Of a stretch of 64,000 nucleotides of DNA, positions 50,214-54,894 are shown in pieces. Below the pieces are notes generated by a model that saw only the letters and a program-made list of their open reading frames with translations, made no database searches and was not told the origin of the DNA. This DNA comes from Alphaproteobacteria bacterium. Its GTDB lineage: Bacteria; Pseudomonadota; Alphaproteobacteria; Rhodobacterales; Rhodobacteraceae. The stretch is taken from NCBI GenBank assembly GCA_030424865.1, contig JAUHVR010000019.1:1-64000 (forward strand). The letters are read 5' to 3'. The first letter of the stretch is position 1; each line of letters starts with the position of its first letter. The position numbers and the translations under genes are program-made.

Positions 50214-51833
50214 ATGAAGTCGATTTTCAGACTGGGCCTGATGGTGGCCGTGGTTGCGATTGTTGCGATTGTTTACGTGATCACCAGCGGCAGCTTTGGC
50301 GGGCCGCGTTCGTCGCTGCACATTGTCTCGGGCTCCGAGAACGAAGCGCTGGAACCAATCATCCAGGAATGGGGCCAGAAAAACCGCGTCGATGTACAGA
50401 TGAGTTATCTGGGCTCGGTCGACATTGCGCGCGAGCTGGCAAAGGGCACGGCAACCGAGTTTGATGCGGTCTGGCCCGCAAATTCGCTGTGGATCGAGTT
50501 GGGGGACGAACAGAAGGTTGTGAAACACGCAACCTCGATCCTGCGCTCGCCCGTGGTGTTGGGTTTGCGGCAGTCCATCGCGCAGGATCTGGGTTGGATC
50601 GGGCGCGATGACGTGACCATCCAGGACATCCAGGCCGCCGCGCGGGACGGCAAGTTCCGATTGTCGATGACCTCGGCCACGCAGTCGAACTCGGGCGCGT
50701 CGGCCTATTTCGGGTTCCTTTACGCGCTGTCGGACAACCCCGACGTGCTGGGCATGGAGCAGCTGGCCAACACAGAAACGCAGGACAAGGTGCGGGATCT
50801 GCTGGCGCAGGTGGACCGATCGTCGGGATCCAGCGGCTGGCTGCGGTCGGCGCTGGTTGAAAACCCCGCGGCCTATGACGCGATGTTCAACTACGAAGCG
50901 TTGGTGATCGAGGCGAACCAGACCTTGGTCCAAAGCGGTCAGGAGCCGCTATATGCGGTCTATCCCGCCAATGGCCTGTCTGTGGCCGACAGTCCGCTGG
51001 GCTATATCAGCAAGGGGGACGCCGCCAAGGAAGAGGCCTTTCTCGCGCTGCAGGCGCACCTGCAGACCTCTGAGATTCAAGAGCTTTTGAACAATCAGGG
51101 CCGCCGCGCCGGGCTGATTGGGCTGATGGCCGAAAGCGCGGACAAATCGGTCTGGAACCCCGATTGGGGCATCGACCTGACCCGCGCAATTGCACCGATC
51201 CCGATCCCGGGATCGGATGTCATCAGCGAGGCGCTGCGGCTCTACCAGTCCGAACTGCGCAAACCCTCGCTGACGGTCTGGGTGCTGGACACCTCTGGCT
51301 CGATGGAGGGCGACCCGATTGCCCAGTTGAAGGACGCGATGCGCCTGTTGCTGGACCCGCAGGCGGCGGCGCTGAACCTGCTGCAGCCGTCGTCCCGCGA
51401 CATCACGATGATCCTGCCGTTCAACCATGACATCGGGCGACTGACGCAGGTCGAAGGCTCGGACACGGAAGAGCTGCGGCGCGCCCTGAACGCGGTTGTC
51501 CAACTGCAGGCCGATGGCGGCACGGATCTGTACTACGCCCTCTTCAAGGCCTTCGAAGAGCTGGGCACATGGGAAGCCGAGGGAACACTCGATGACTACC
51601 TGCCCGCCATTGTGGCCATGACCGACGGCGCTTCGGCGACCGACAACCGCGATCCGTTTTTCAACTATCTGCAGGGCCTGAGCTATGCCACCAAGGTGCC
51701 GATCCATTCGATCGCCTTTGGCGACGCGGATGAGGCGCAGTTGCAAGAGCTGTCCAATGCCTCGATCGGGCGGCTGTTTCACGCCAAGTCGGACCTGGCA
51801 GCGGCCTTGCGCAAGGCCAAGGGGTACAACTGA
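50214..51833 (+). CDS. Membrane-anchored binding-protein/VWA fusion
   Basis: A 539-aa protein. One N-terminal membrane segment (about residues 7-25) is followed by a type-2 periplasmic-binding-like domain to about 340 (LHIVSGSENEALEPII, FDAVWPANSLWIELG, YAVYPANGLSVADSPLG). A von Willebrand A domain follows from about 353, with the MIDAS motif DTSGS at 359-363, GGTDLYYALF and MTDGAS. It is likely exported and held in the membrane. It is the first of three overlapping genes; the XpaC ATG overlaps its stop by one base. No ABC permease is near, so sensing or scaffolding is more likely than transport. Confidence 0.85.
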   Translation: MKSIFRLGLMVAVVAIVAIVYVITSGSFGGPRSSLHIVSGSENEALEPIIQEWGQKNRVDVQMSYLGSVDIARELAKGTATEFDAVWPANSLWIELGDEQKVVKHATSILRSPVVLGLRQSIAQDLGWIGRDDVTIQDIQAAARDGKFRLSMTSATQSNSGASAYFGFLYALSDNPDVLGMEQLANTETQDKVRDLLAQVDRSSGSSGWLRSALVENPAAYDAMFNYEALVIEANQTLVQSGQEPLYAVYPANGLSVADSPLGYISKGDAAKEEAFLALQAHLQTSEIQELLNNQGRRAGLIGLMAESADKSVWNPDWGIDLTRAIAPIPIPGSDVISEALRLYQSELRKPSLTVWVLDTSGSMEGDPIAQLKDAMRLLLDPQAAALNLLQPSSRDITMILPFNHDIGRLTQVEGSDTEELRRALNAVVQLQADGGTDLYYALFKAFEELGTWEAEGTLDDYLPAIVAMTDGASATDNRDPFFNYLQGLSYATKVPIHSIAFGDADEAQLQELSNASIGRLFHAKSDLAAALRKAKGYN

Positions 51834-52435
51834 TGACCTTGCCTGACGGACCTCGGCAGATGCTGGCCGCTGCCCTTTCGGCTGCGGTCTTTCTGGGCCT
51901 TTTCTTTGGGGCGCAACTTGTCTGGTGGCTGGCGCTGGCATTGGCCGTGGCCGTCTATGGCGCGGTTCTGCTGATCGTGCGACGCCGCCGTCGCGCCGAC
52001 GAGATCGTTTTGGGCGCGCGGGTCACCCAGGCCGACGTTCAGGCCGCCGGAGAGGCCCTGCGCGACAGTGCAGAACGGCTGGATAAAGCGGCTGCACAAG
52101 TGCCCGAGGCAGACAGAGAGGCTGTCGAAGAGATGGCCCGCCACGTCTGGTCGATCCGCGAAAATGTGCTGGAAGACGCGGATGATTACCGCCTGACCCG
52201 GCGGTTCATCGGGTCATATCTGCCCAACATCGTCAAAAGCGTCGAAACCTATGCGCAACTGGCGTCCAAGGCCGCGCGCAGCCAGCCCGAACGCCTGGCG
52301 GCGGTTGGCAAACAGATCAGGGAGTACGGGCCCGTGCTGGAACACATTGACCAGGCCTGCATCGAAAACGACTTTGCCGCACTCGAGTCCGAGGTGGACG
52401 CCTTGGGTGCACAGCTTTCCCGGAGGATCCGATGA
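51833..52435 (+). CDS. XpaC-like membrane protein
   Basis: A 200-aa protein with two N-terminal hydrophobic segments (residues about 10-28 and 30-47), a basic turn (RRRRRADE) and a cytoplasmic helical domain (RRFIGSYLPNIVKSVETYAQLA, broken across residues 121-142). The shape and the LPNIVKSVETY motif match the XpaC family (named after 5-bromo-4-chloroindolyl phosphate hydrolysis), which is usually found beside TelA. No telA gene follows here. Its stop overlaps the next start by 4 bp. Confidence 0.8.
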   Translation: MTLPDGPRQMLAAALSAAVFLGLFFGAQLVWWLALALAVAVYGAVLLIVRRRRRADEIVLGARVTQADVQAAGEALRDSAERLDKAAAQVPEADREAVEEMARHVWSIRENVLEDADDYRLTRRFIGSYLPNIVKSVETYAQLASKAARSQPERLAAVGKQIREYGPVLEHIDQACIENDFAALESEVDALGAQLSRRIR

Positions 52436-53520
52436 ACCGAACCATCCTTGGCCTTGCTGTCCTGGGCGTTGTCGCCGCCGTTTCGGTTGGCGTGACAATG
52501 GTGGATCTTTCCTCCGTGACACGCTCGGTCGAGCGTAGGGAGCCGGTGACCGTCTCGATGTTCTTCGGTGGCGAGAAATCGGCGCTTCTGCGCAACGAGA
52601 AGGTCAGAAAGATCATCGAGGATCGCTACAAGATCACGCTGGACGCAACCAAGGCGGGATCGGTCGAGATGGTGACGACGCTGCCCTCGACCGGCAAGGA
52701 TTGCCTCTGGCCGTCGAACATGGTCGCCGTCGAACTGGCACGAAACTCGGGCCGGACGGTTCTGGGCGACGAGACGATCTTCAACTCGCCAATTGTGTTC
52801 TACGCCTGGTCCGACGTGGCCGATGCGCTGACCAAGGCGGGGGCCGTGAAGCAGCGACCGGACGGTTTCCTGGCTGCGGACGTGTCCAAGATCGGCGAGC
52901 TGATCGCAGGTGGTGCGCGTTGGCAAGAGGATCTGGGTGTGAACGTCTATGGGCCGTTCAAGGTCTTTTCGACCCACCCGGCCAAGTCGAACTCGGGCAA
53001 CATCTGGTCGGGGCTCCTGGCCACGGTGTTCAACGATGGCGCGCCTCCGGCGGAAAGCGACATGGGCGTCGTGCTGCCGAAGGTGACGGCCTATTTCGAG
53101 GCGATGGGGCATATGGAGGCAAGCTCGGGTGACATCTTCGAGAACTTCCTGAAGCAGGGCATGGGGTCGCGTCCGATCATCGTGGGATATGAGAACCAGA
53201 TGGTCGAGTTTCTGGGCGAGAACGCGAATTACGCCGAGCTGATCCAGGATCGGATCCGGGTGATCTATCCCGAACCGACGATCTTTGCCTCGCATCCGCT
53301 GATTGCCCTGACGTCGACCTGCAAACGCCTGCAAGAGGCCCTGGCGGACCCGGATCTTCAGGACATAGCCTGGTCGGATCATGGCTTTCGAACCGGCCTG
53401 ATCGGGGTCGAGAACGATCCCGGCGCCATCACGGGCGCCAAACTGCCGGAAACCGTCTCGTTGGTCGTCCCGATGCCAGCGGCCGCCGTCATGGAAGACA
53501 TCATTCAGGCCGTGCGCTGA
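52432..53520 (+). CDS. Membrane-anchored or exported substrate-binding-like protein
   Basis: A 362-aa protein with an N-terminal hydrophobic segment (residues 4-22) and a type-2 binding-protein fold: VTVSMFFGGEKSALL, LWPSNMVAVELARN, PIVFYAWSDVADALT, VFSTHPAKSNSGNIW. It resembles the binding domain of the first gene of this module but lacks VWA. The ligand is unknown. It is coupled by ATGA to the XpaC-like gene and followed by three hairpins. It has no permease partner in the window. Confidence 0.8.
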   Translation: MNRTILGLAVLGVVAAVSVGVTMVDLSSVTRSVERREPVTVSMFFGGEKSALLRNEKVRKIIEDRYKITLDATKAGSVEMVTTLPSTGKDCLWPSNMVAVELARNSGRTVLGDETIFNSPIVFYAWSDVADALTKAGAVKQRPDGFLAADVSKIGELIAGGARWQEDLGVNVYGPFKVFSTHPAKSNSGNIWSGLLATVFNDGAPPAESDMGVVLPKVTAYFEAMGHMEASSGDIFENFLKQGMGSRPIIVGYENQMVEFLGENANYAELIQDRIRVIYPEPTIFASHPLIALTSTCKRLQEALADPDLQDIAWSDHGFRTGLIGVENDPGAITGAKLPETVSLVVPMPAAAVMEDIIQAVR

Positions 53521-53600: not shown

Positions 53601-54146
53601 TCAGCCAGCCTTCTGCGCTTTGGCCCGGGACATCAGCCAGTCCATCAAGGCCATCAGCACACCGGACAGAACAAAGACCATGTGGATGATCACCAGCCAC
53701 ATCAGCTCACGATCCCCAAAGACCTTGTCCGCGTCAGACTGACCGATCTCCATGAACCTCTTCAGCAGGTGGATACCGGAAATCGCGATGATCGAGGCGA
53801 TCAGTTTCATCTTGAGACCACCAAAATCCACGGTGCCCATCCAGGCCGCGCGGTCATGGGTCTCGCCAATGTCAAGCTTGCTTACAAAGTTCTCGTAGCC
53901 CGAGAACAGTACGATCACCAACAGGTTCGCCGCCAAGGTCAGGTCGATCAGCGTCAGAACCGCCAGGATCGACTTGTCCGCACTGATCGTCAGGATCTGC
54001 GGCATGTAATAGGCCAGCTCGCGCAGGAACACGACCACCAGCAGCGCCAAAGACACCGACAGTCCTAGGTACATCGGCGCCATCATCCAACGTGAGGCAA
54101 AGAGCGTGCGTTCGAAACGGCTTTCAATCGAGGTTTTCTGGGTCAT
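53601..54146 (-). CDS. YqhA/UPF0114-family membrane protein
   Basis: A 181-aa inner-membrane protein with about four hydrophobic segments and the YqhA/TIGR00645 pattern: FERTLFASRWMMAPMYLGL at the start, DLTLAANLLVIVLFSGYENFVS, and LKMKLIASIIAISGIHLL. The family function is unknown. ATG at 54146 (MTQKTSIES) fits family starts; the frame extending to 54335 crosses the rpsD terminator. It has no obvious operon partner. Confidence 0.88.
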   Translation of the reverse strand: MTQKTSIESRFERTLFASRWMMAPMYLGLSVSLALLVVVFLRELAYYMPQILTISADKSILAVLTLIDLTLAANLLVIVLFSGYENFVSKLDIGETHDRAAWMGTVDFGGLKMKLIASIIAISGIHLLKRFMEIGQSDADKVFGDRELMWLVIIHMVFVLSGVLMALMDWLMSRAKAQKAG

Positions 54147-54220
54147 GCCCGGTCTTTGCCGCGCTGCGGCGGCAAGGTCAATTTCTTTCCGCAGTTTCTG
54201 TCCTTGGTGACGCACCCAAC

Positions 54221-54250
54221 AAAAAAGGGCCGCGCATGGCGCAGCCCCCT
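54221..54250 (-). terminator. rpsD terminator
   Basis: On the minus strand GGGCTGCGC-CAT-GCGCGGCCC (one G-U) is followed by TTTTTTG, directly after rpsD. Confidence 0.9.
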
Positions 54251-54273
54251 TGCAAGTCCCGCTCTGGAACAGC

Positions 54274-54894
54274 TTAGTTCTGAGCGTAGTATTCGATGAC
54301 CAGGTTCGGTTCCATGACAACCGGATAAGGCACATCGCCCAGACCCGGGGTGCGCACGAAGGTCGCGGTCATTTTCGAGTGGTCAGCTTCGACGTAATCC
54401 GGAACGTCACGCTCGGCCAGCTGAACAGCTTCCAGCAGGACGGCCAGTTGCTTGGACTTCTCGCGCACCTCGATCACGTCGCCTTCCTTGACGCGGTACG
54501 AGGGGATGTTCACGCGCTTGCCGTTGACCAAGACATGGCCGTGGTTCACGAACTGACGGGCTGCGAACATGGTGGCAACGAACTTGGCACGGTACACAAC
54601 CGCGTCCAGGCGGCGCTCCAGCAGGCCGATCAGGTTTTCGCCGGTGTCACCTTTGACACGCTCGGCTTCACCATAGATGCGGCGGAACTGCTTTTCGGTC
54701 AGGTCGCCGTAGTAGCCTTTGAGCTTCTGCTTGGCGCGCAGCTGCAGACCAAAGTCCGACATCTTGCCCTTGCGGCGCTGGCCATGCTGGCCGGGGCCAT
54801 ATTCGCGACGGTTGACCGGGGATTTCGGACGACCCCAGATGTTTTCGCCCATCCGGCGGTCGATTTTGTACTTGGCAGACGTGCGTTTGGTCAC
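54274..54894 (-). CDS. rpsD: 30S ribosomal protein S4
   Basis: The 206-aa S4 protein has the conserved start [53 protein letters not shown] and the S4 RNA-binding domain [32 protein letters not shown]. It nucleates 30S assembly on 16S rRNA. As usual in this group it stands alone rather than in the alpha operon. The upstream region (54895-55132) contains a GC hairpin near 54969-54982 that might be a leader structure. Confidence 0.98.

Follow-up and report, generated by a model that had tools for sequence, protein, structure and literature searches.

A conserved, patchily distributed gene cassette combining anchored binding-like proteins and a VWA domain with an XpaC-family membrane protein

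The analysed stretch, called the window here, comprises 64,000 nucleotides (positions 1 to 64,000 of contig JAUHVR010000019.1, assembly GCA_030424865.1) from an Alphaproteobacteria bacterium of the Rhodobacteraceae; its source genome, G000, has 4.77 Mb in 35 contigs, and the window is designated G000:C10. It contains three genes, P1, P2 and P3, which form a real, conserved and uncharacterised cassette encoding two anchored binding-like proteins, one of them fused to a VWA domain, together with an XpaC-family membrane protein. P1 and P2 overlap by one base (TGATG; gap -1), P2 and P3 by four bases (ATGA; gap -4). The features of the cassette are as follows:

50214..51833, + strand: P1 (539 aa), fusion of an anchored SBP_bac_11 binding domain with a VWA domain
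50217..50288, + strand: N-terminal helix of P1, residues 2-25, taken as signal anchor (AlphaFold2 helix, lipobox survey)
50325..51104, + strand: type-2 binding domain of P1, residues 38-297 (PF13531; motifs around GSE, SNSG and NYE)
51273..51830, + strand: VWA domain of P1, residues 354-539 (Pfam, VIA-align)
51288..51302, + strand: DTSGS of the predicted metal-ion-dependent adhesion site (MIDAS) of P1, residues 359-363 (D-x-S-G-S in 28/28 full-length cassette P1 proteins)
51833..52435, + strand: P2 (200 aa), XpaC-family membrane protein
51851..51988, + strand: hydrophobic stretch of P2, residues about 7-52 (hydropathy)
52432..53520, + strand: P3 (362 aa), second anchored type-2 binding-like protein
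52435..52500, + strand: predicted N-terminal helix of P3, residues 2-23, taken as membrane anchor (predicted local distance difference test score, pLDDT, 40-62 there)

The module stands above chance because it is conserved across phyla and because the ratio of nonsynonymous to synonymous substitution rates (dN/dS) lies at 0.08-0.31 in seven pairs compared for P1, P2 and P3, one pair being two P1-only copies; between the window and genome G021 it is 0.25-0.31 for the three genes. P1, P2 and P3 occur together in 29 non-duplicate loci, two of which (L021, L084) are cut by contig ends. L084, with its P1 beyond the contig end, is counted as a cassette; the duplicates L004-L006, L022, L049 and L091, other short copies and the P3 match in genome G151 are omitted from the counts. 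A preliminary description of the window, made from the sequence alone, had named a failure of the three genes to co-occur in other genomes as evidence against a module, and these 29 loci show that they do recur together. The order P1-P2-P3 is found in Alphaproteobacteria, Bacillota, Armatimonadota and one Schekmanbacteria bin, P3 comes first in betaproteobacterial, actinobacterial and Deinococcus plasmid loci, and divergent cassettes are present in plasmid records of Sphaerotilus, Variovorax, Deinococcus and Nonomuraea. Among the window genome and 100 relatives, five of the 101 have a full-length match to P1, one of them (G003) carrying P1 only, and six others match its VWA part only. P3 was found in at least 9 of 398 sampled Pseudomonadota. 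In the phylum to which the Clostridiales genome of L030 (G500) belongs, at least 4 of 398 genomes have it at E <1e-80, with three weaker matches in addition; in both samples no more than five candidates were scored for each genome. In the phylum of the Armatimonadetes genome of L028 (G498) it is present in 4 of 101. A contig scan of genomes yielded 14 loci and, as it used P1 peptides of the window, is biased towards relatives of the window. P3 also occurs in stretches without P1, i.e. in G1033 (L089) and on a Streptomyces plasmid (L048). Thus, with low rates among genomes and occurrence in several phyla and on plasmids, the distribution of the cassette is patchy but wide. In the P1 tree the Rhodobacterales proteins group with those from Schekmanbacteria, Armatimonadota and one Clostridiales, apart from other alphaproteobacteria (supports 90/90 and 69/87), which hints at an old transfer. 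In G886 the intact cassette is preceded by another P2 and by a P1 that is divided between two open reading frames (ORFs) (L086 9986-12239), representing a partial duplication.

P1 passes the Pfam cut-offs for SBP_bac_11 (PF13531; 68.5 bits, cut-off 25, residues 38-297), VWA_2 (39.8 bits, cut-off 27) and VWA (32.4 bits, cut-off 23.8), the latter two together covering residues 354-528. A MIDAS is defined by a DxSxS motif and by a Thr and an Asp residue that bind the metal. The corresponding motifs DTSGS (359-363), GGTD (435-438) and TDG (470-472) are all present in P1, i.e. its VWA domain carries an intact predicted MIDAS. The AlphaFold2 models of P1 and P3 were calculated from alignments of the window and related-locus proteins (15 rows for P1, 11 rows for P3) and have mean pLDDT values of 88.3 and 81.5, respectively. 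According to VIA-align the modelled binding domain of P1 is most similar to the sulfate-binding protein 5um2 (Z 27.1, 3.1 Å, 288 residues aligned), with glucose-6-phosphate (G6P)-, thiamin- and polyamine-binding proteins ranking lower, and the VWA domain resembles the Catenulispora VWA protein 4fx5 (Z 22.4, 2.0 Å, 173 aligned) and inter-alpha-inhibitor heavy chain 1 (Z 22.4). A lipobox pattern is present in 14 of the 27 P1 proteins surveyed (the start of the L054 protein was misjudged in this survey). All 14 are among the 18 proteins outside the Rhodobacterales-like group, where three more (L045, L085, L086) were recognized by eye, as their hydrophobic stretch ends with a cysteine missed by the simple pattern; the nine Rhodobacterales-like rows, including the window's, have a hydrophobic anchor and no lipobox. 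Given these export signals in its relatives, the binding and VWA domains of P1 are very probably located outside the cytoplasm.

P3 matches no Pfam family at E 1, and its only NCBIfam match (10.5 bits) is far under the cut-off of that model. Nevertheless, it is predicted to adopt the two-lobed fold of a type-2 binding protein: in VIA-align SubI (Z 22.6, 267 aligned) and Sbp (Z 22.1, 274 aligned) are tied at the top, both at 3.6 Å, many type-2 binding proteins rank below them, and Foldseek places ModA and Sbp first. Comparison of the P1 and P3 profiles (probability 98.8%, E 6.3e-17) rejects the possibility that P3 is unrelated to P1, and the two share the motif blocks GSEN/GGEK, GSVDI/GSVEM, VWPAN/LWPSN, SPVV/SPIV, SNSG/SNSG and NYE/GYE (P1/P3); judged by sequence, the binding domain of P1 and P3 are homologous. 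In a weak alignment with E. coli Sbp, SNSG of P3 pairs with the SSGG loop, which we take to be sulfate-binding, and GYEN with AWEN. The alignment of P3 to E. coli ModA was uninformative, and a sequence search of the PDB with P3 returned one match, at chance level.

P2 belongs to the XpaC family (PF10112; 52.7 bits, cut-off 29.8), as do three of the six other cassette P2 proteins scanned (L030, L050, L085); those of L044, L045 and L028 gave no PF10112 match at E 0.01. It has one hydrophobic stretch with room for two membrane helices, likely forming a two-helix hairpin, and since an Arg-rich stretch follows, the C-terminal part is probably cytoplasmic, a topology that is itself inferred. Taken together, what the preliminary description had said of the anatomy is borne out in every statement, save for the scope of "without telA": the three genes overlap at the positions it gave, P1 carries an anchored binding domain and a VWA domain with an intact DTSGS, P2 is XpaC-like with a hydrophobic stretch long enough for two membrane segments, and P3 combines a predicted N-terminal helix with a type-2 fold.

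The gene for TelA is part of the cassette in 13 of the 29 loci and occurs in three arrangements: telA-P1-P2-P3 (L017, L050-L053; five genomes of the window's class), P3-telA-P1-P2 (L044, L045, L047, L054, L055) and P1-P2-P3-telA (L084-L086). The 16 loci without telA have the order P1-P2-P3 (window, L015, L016, L020, L021, L023-L028, L030, L033, L087, L088) or, on a Deinococcus plasmid (L046), P3-P1-P2; they include all ten Rhodobacterales-like loci. Somewhere in the genome, TelA is found above cut-off in 20 of 25 cassette genomes, and in nine of the ten whole-searched genomes with a cassette telA this gene encodes the only TelA. The window genome encodes a TelA as well, at G000:C21, directly after an XpaC of its own (PF10112, 89.4 bits). 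No TelA was found in the plasmid records L046 and L048, of which the plasmid sequences only were searched. Thus, the preliminary description was right about the operon in the window, which lacks telA, but neither the genome nor 13 of the 29 related cassettes do, and telA absence was rejected as a defining trait: TelA is frequent, not obligatory, and "no telA" is a trait of the lineage. It had also named telA-type partners elsewhere in a fixed operon as evidence against its reading; in other lineages telA does lie within the cassette, though in varying position. As its position varies, a functional tie between telA and the cassette is favoured over an inherited neighbourhood.

In the window's family TelA is near-core, with matches in 89 of the 100 genomes sampled and in 3 of 14 controls, while the cassette is rare, and thus the core TelA is independent of the cassette. 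The 13 core TelAs of Rhodobacterales form one clade (97/100) with no cassette TelA inside; rows L006, L041, L042 and L072-L074 of that tree are cassette genes present twice, not core genes. The presence of telA requires two changes on the P1 tree (shuffled mean 10.5) and five on the P3 tree (shuffled mean 10.0). In two loci (L019 7394-8224; L092 6950-7789) a second, weakly XpaC-like ORF (E 5e-14 and 2e-4) precedes the core XpaC-TelA pair.

Transporter genes were sought in 34 loci and the window by a crude scan for ABC-ATPase and EAA-loop permease motifs, which can miss permeases. No such motif lies inside any cassette, in line with the earlier statement that the unit lacks transporter genes, and the flanks contain ABC motifs in 5 of the 34 loci. 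The preliminary description had named constant proximity to ABC permeases as evidence against its reading, and the loci do not show it. The nearest same-strand case is L026, where ORFs resembling an ATPase and a permease lie about 1.5 and 3.7 kb downstream, respectively. By motif, the window has four ABC-ATPase-like ORFs, none less than 20 kb from the module, and no ORF with a permease motif.

In the window the cassette is flanked by the divergent hisC on one side and by a UPF0114 gene followed by rpsD, on the opposite strand, on the other; hisC, tyrA and rpsD are presumably named correctly, having been recognized by their sequences, and the names of the UPF0114 and extensin-like genes rest on Pfam. 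The hisC-tyrA-extensin site is common to the window, G021 (L015), Pelagimonas (L020) and four genomes that carry P1 only, i.e. G003, Antarctobacter and two Mameliella (L018, L029, L031, L032). P2 is missing from these four stretches and P3 from all four whole genomes; the same search finds P3 in G018 and G021. All 28 full-length cassette P1 proteins (a count that omits the second, truncated P1 of L086, 386 aa) keep DxSGS, the MIDAS Thr, [ST]DG, [GS]SE, N[ST]G and NYE, whereas [GS]SE, N[ST]G and NYE are intact in none of the four P1-only copies. The MIDAS Thr has become Met in three of them, L018 aligning ambiguously, and the two Mameliella copies have lost DxSxS and TDG as well. As far as sequence goes, this agrees with a binding site and a MIDAS whose importance depends on the presence of P2 and P3. 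Since the reading frames of the P1-only copies are open and the two Mameliella copies differ at dN/dS 0.21, the lone P1 may be kept for something else, possibly a new role.

Based on these findings we favour the view that the cassette encodes an envelope complex in which the binding proteins serve for sensing or capture instead of import and are coupled via XpaC to TelA or a substitute, and we assign this a probability of about 0.42; the formation of a complex, the type of ligand, the direction of signalling and the output are what we infer here. P1 and P3, as homologous type-2 binding proteins, would be anchored on the external side of the cytoplasmic membrane; the folds predicted for them resemble, among others, sulfate-type oxyanion binders. 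Via its MIDAS metal site the VWA domain of P1 may bind a partner in a ligand-dependent manner, the simplest candidates being P3 and the external side of P2, and P2 would carry the state across the membrane. In a complete system cytoplasmic TelA would receive this state, resulting in envelope protection as reported for XpaC-TelA, and in the window's lineage P2 may use the core TelA from elsewhere in the genome or work independently of TelA. Of the interpretation in the preliminary description, a conserved unit that combines two anchored binding-type proteins with a VWA domain and XpaC, and has no transporter genes inside it, stands, and its ligand-controlled, VWA-mediated assembly would be part of this scheme; telA absence as its definition does not stand. 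We also put forward, as a possibility with the odds against it, a transporter-independent receptor, in which closure of the paired binding proteins on a ligand would be relayed via the MIDAS of the VWA domain to XpaC and on to TelA, XpaC-TelA being the inner half.

Several observations weigh against the favoured envelope complex. No TelA above cut-off was found in three Armatimonadota with P1-P2-P3 (G498, G950 and G989, the latter with one sub-threshold match of 20.7 bits), nor in a Schekmanbacteria bin (G497) and an alphaproteobacterial bin (G492); with five TelA-less cassette genomes, TelA is thus no universal receiver, and the Armatimonadota point to a mode of action that needs no TelA. As to the class of ligand, the models point in several directions: Foldseek ranks P5PA, G6P- and ferric-binding proteins first for P1 but ModA and Sbp for P3, and the profile alignment to Sbp is weak (65.6% at best for P3, 12.4% with a narrower profile; 1.3% for P1). 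Furthermore, the P1-only copies form one clade (100/99) beside Pelagimonas, with L018 on a long branch, and their motif loss therefore counts as a single event; that the binding-domain motifs form a pocket is, moreover, an assumption from sequence.

An envelope-stress or ligand-sensing complex remains favoured, and its main rival is direct capture, in which P1 and P3 would act as surface sinks for a toxic anion or an antimicrobial and XpaC, with or without TelA, would stabilise the membrane without any signal being passed. Two homologous binding proteins and cassettes free of ABC motifs agree with such a role, as do the ties of Firmicutes TelA and XpaC genes to nisin, tellurite, bacteriocins and sigma-W, the roles of which are called unknown or uncertain in the papers cited below. 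However, a sink would require high expression and gives no reason for a MIDAS kept in 28/28 cassette P1 proteins, and we consider capture unlikely. SBP_bac_11 proteins usually serve ABC importers, and P1 and P3 might be orphan binding proteins that work with an importer from another locus, VWA and XpaC being accessory factors. The ABC-like ORFs downstream of the L026 cassette and a P1-like gene about 5.5 kb from pstS on a Thiodictyon plasmid point this way, but neither the VWA fusion nor the telA linkage would be explained and the motif scan described above found so few ABC candidates that we regard an importer as quite improbable.

That the window copy is a non-working leftover after telA loss would be in keeping with its telA-less operon and with the same-site relatives that lack P2 and P3 and have a changed P1. 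The motifs of the window are all intact, though, the overlapping frames are kept, the dN/dS values against G021 are low as given above and the telA-less form is common to 10/10 Rhodobacterales-like loci, making a leftover very improbable. Least probable of all is VWA-assisted insertion of a metal or cofactor in the manner of MoxR- or chelatase-type systems, the one pointer being that the VWA part of P1 weakly matches an NCBIfam cobaltochelatase model (16.2 bits, cut-off 779). The AAA+ partners in those systems are cytoplasmic, whereas relatives of P1 carry lipoprotein signals; no AAA+ gene is named among the annotated plasmid neighbours, a profile search for AAA+ not having been made.

Regarding the surroundings of the cassette, hisC and P1 are 59 bases apart, measured between the longest reading frames, and the UPF0114 membrane-protein gene (window 53601-54335) is convergent with the cassette; no UPF0114 relative is present in the cassette loci of the other genomes examined. 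A scan for promoters and terminators stayed at chance level (0 and 3 sites; 0.8 and 3.0 expected). A recent foreign origin in G000 was rejected, as the composition of the cassette matches that of the window (G+C 62.3% vs 62.2%) and of its neighbours (third-position G+C 0.81, 0.73 and 0.80 for P1, P2 and P3; 0.81, 0.80 and 0.77 for three neighbours). Within a few kb of P1, genes for a flotillin and for an OB-fold membrane protein are found in five Rhodobacterales-like loci and on the Variovorax plasmid (L018 13926-16387, L029 2452-5007, L031 2632-5118, L032 2544-5045, L015 12082-14487, L047 3515-5910); the pair is not present near P1 in the window, and the proximity may be local synteny. The Variovorax plasmid also carries an annotated Wadjet JetA gene, followed by a DUF4194 gene, about 2.4 kb from the cassette (L047 15268-16831). 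On the Thiodictyon plasmid (L096 194-10786) the P1-like gene is accompanied by another gene for a binding protein and by a small hypothetical one. Assignment of the cassette itself to a defence system was rejected: PADLOC gave only weak matches of P1 to TerY (18.6 bits) and of P2 to JetC (15.1 bits) and ZorA (13.1-13.6 bits), and none of P3.

No account of the cassette was found among the titles and abstract openings listed in literature searches that covered few subscription papers; an earlier mention in comparative genomics of Ter systems is possible. The domain order of P1 is that of proteins annotated as "substrate-binding and VWA domain-containing protein", the name given to the Variovorax cassette protein, but this name is an annotation only; in a full-text search no paper contained the wording "substrate-binding and VWA". 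The type-2 binders Sbp, SubI and ModA share the predicted fold of the P1 domain and P3, and P1 passes PF13531, but the cassette proteins differ from them in being anchored, paired, in one case VWA-fused and without transporter genes, and P3 has no Pfam family. The telA neighbourhoods on the Sphaerotilus and Variovorax plasmids contain a P3-telA-P1-P2 cassette; unlike in the window, telA adjoins P3 there, and P3 and P2 are annotated as hypothetical.

The closest known system is the XpaC-TelA pair (xpaC-yaaN) of Bacillus and Listeria. The operon xpaC-yaaN is listed in the core sigma-W regulon of B. subtilis (PMC3498285), a Listeria mutant in lmo1967 (TelA) is reported to be 4-fold more susceptible to nisin and 2-fold to tellurite (PMC12791056, citing Collins 2010), garvicin KS slightly induces the Listeria XpaC-TelA pair, and the mechanism of protection by Lmo1967 is stated as not known (PMC12791056). 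In a lactococcus resistant to a bacteriocin, the mutated genes include an XpaC-like one, the role of which is called uncertain, and other findings on XpaC in Firmicutes are cited (PMC7864038). The cassette is like this pair in that P2 is in the XpaC family and telA is frequently included, but the pair, as named in passages of PMC12791056 and PMC3498285, has neither binding proteins nor VWA, and the window operon lacks telA while the window genome has a separate XpaC-TelA pair. Hence, the XpaC-TelA theme is known, and the exported binding-protein/VWA half was not found described in the papers listed by the literature searches. The recurrence of exported binding proteins and a VWA domain beside XpaC, and often TelA, points to an extracytoplasmic ligand and suggests that the cassette is a device linking a ligand bound outside to an envelope-stress protein inside, which turns the question of how TelA protects into a binding screen on P1 and P3.

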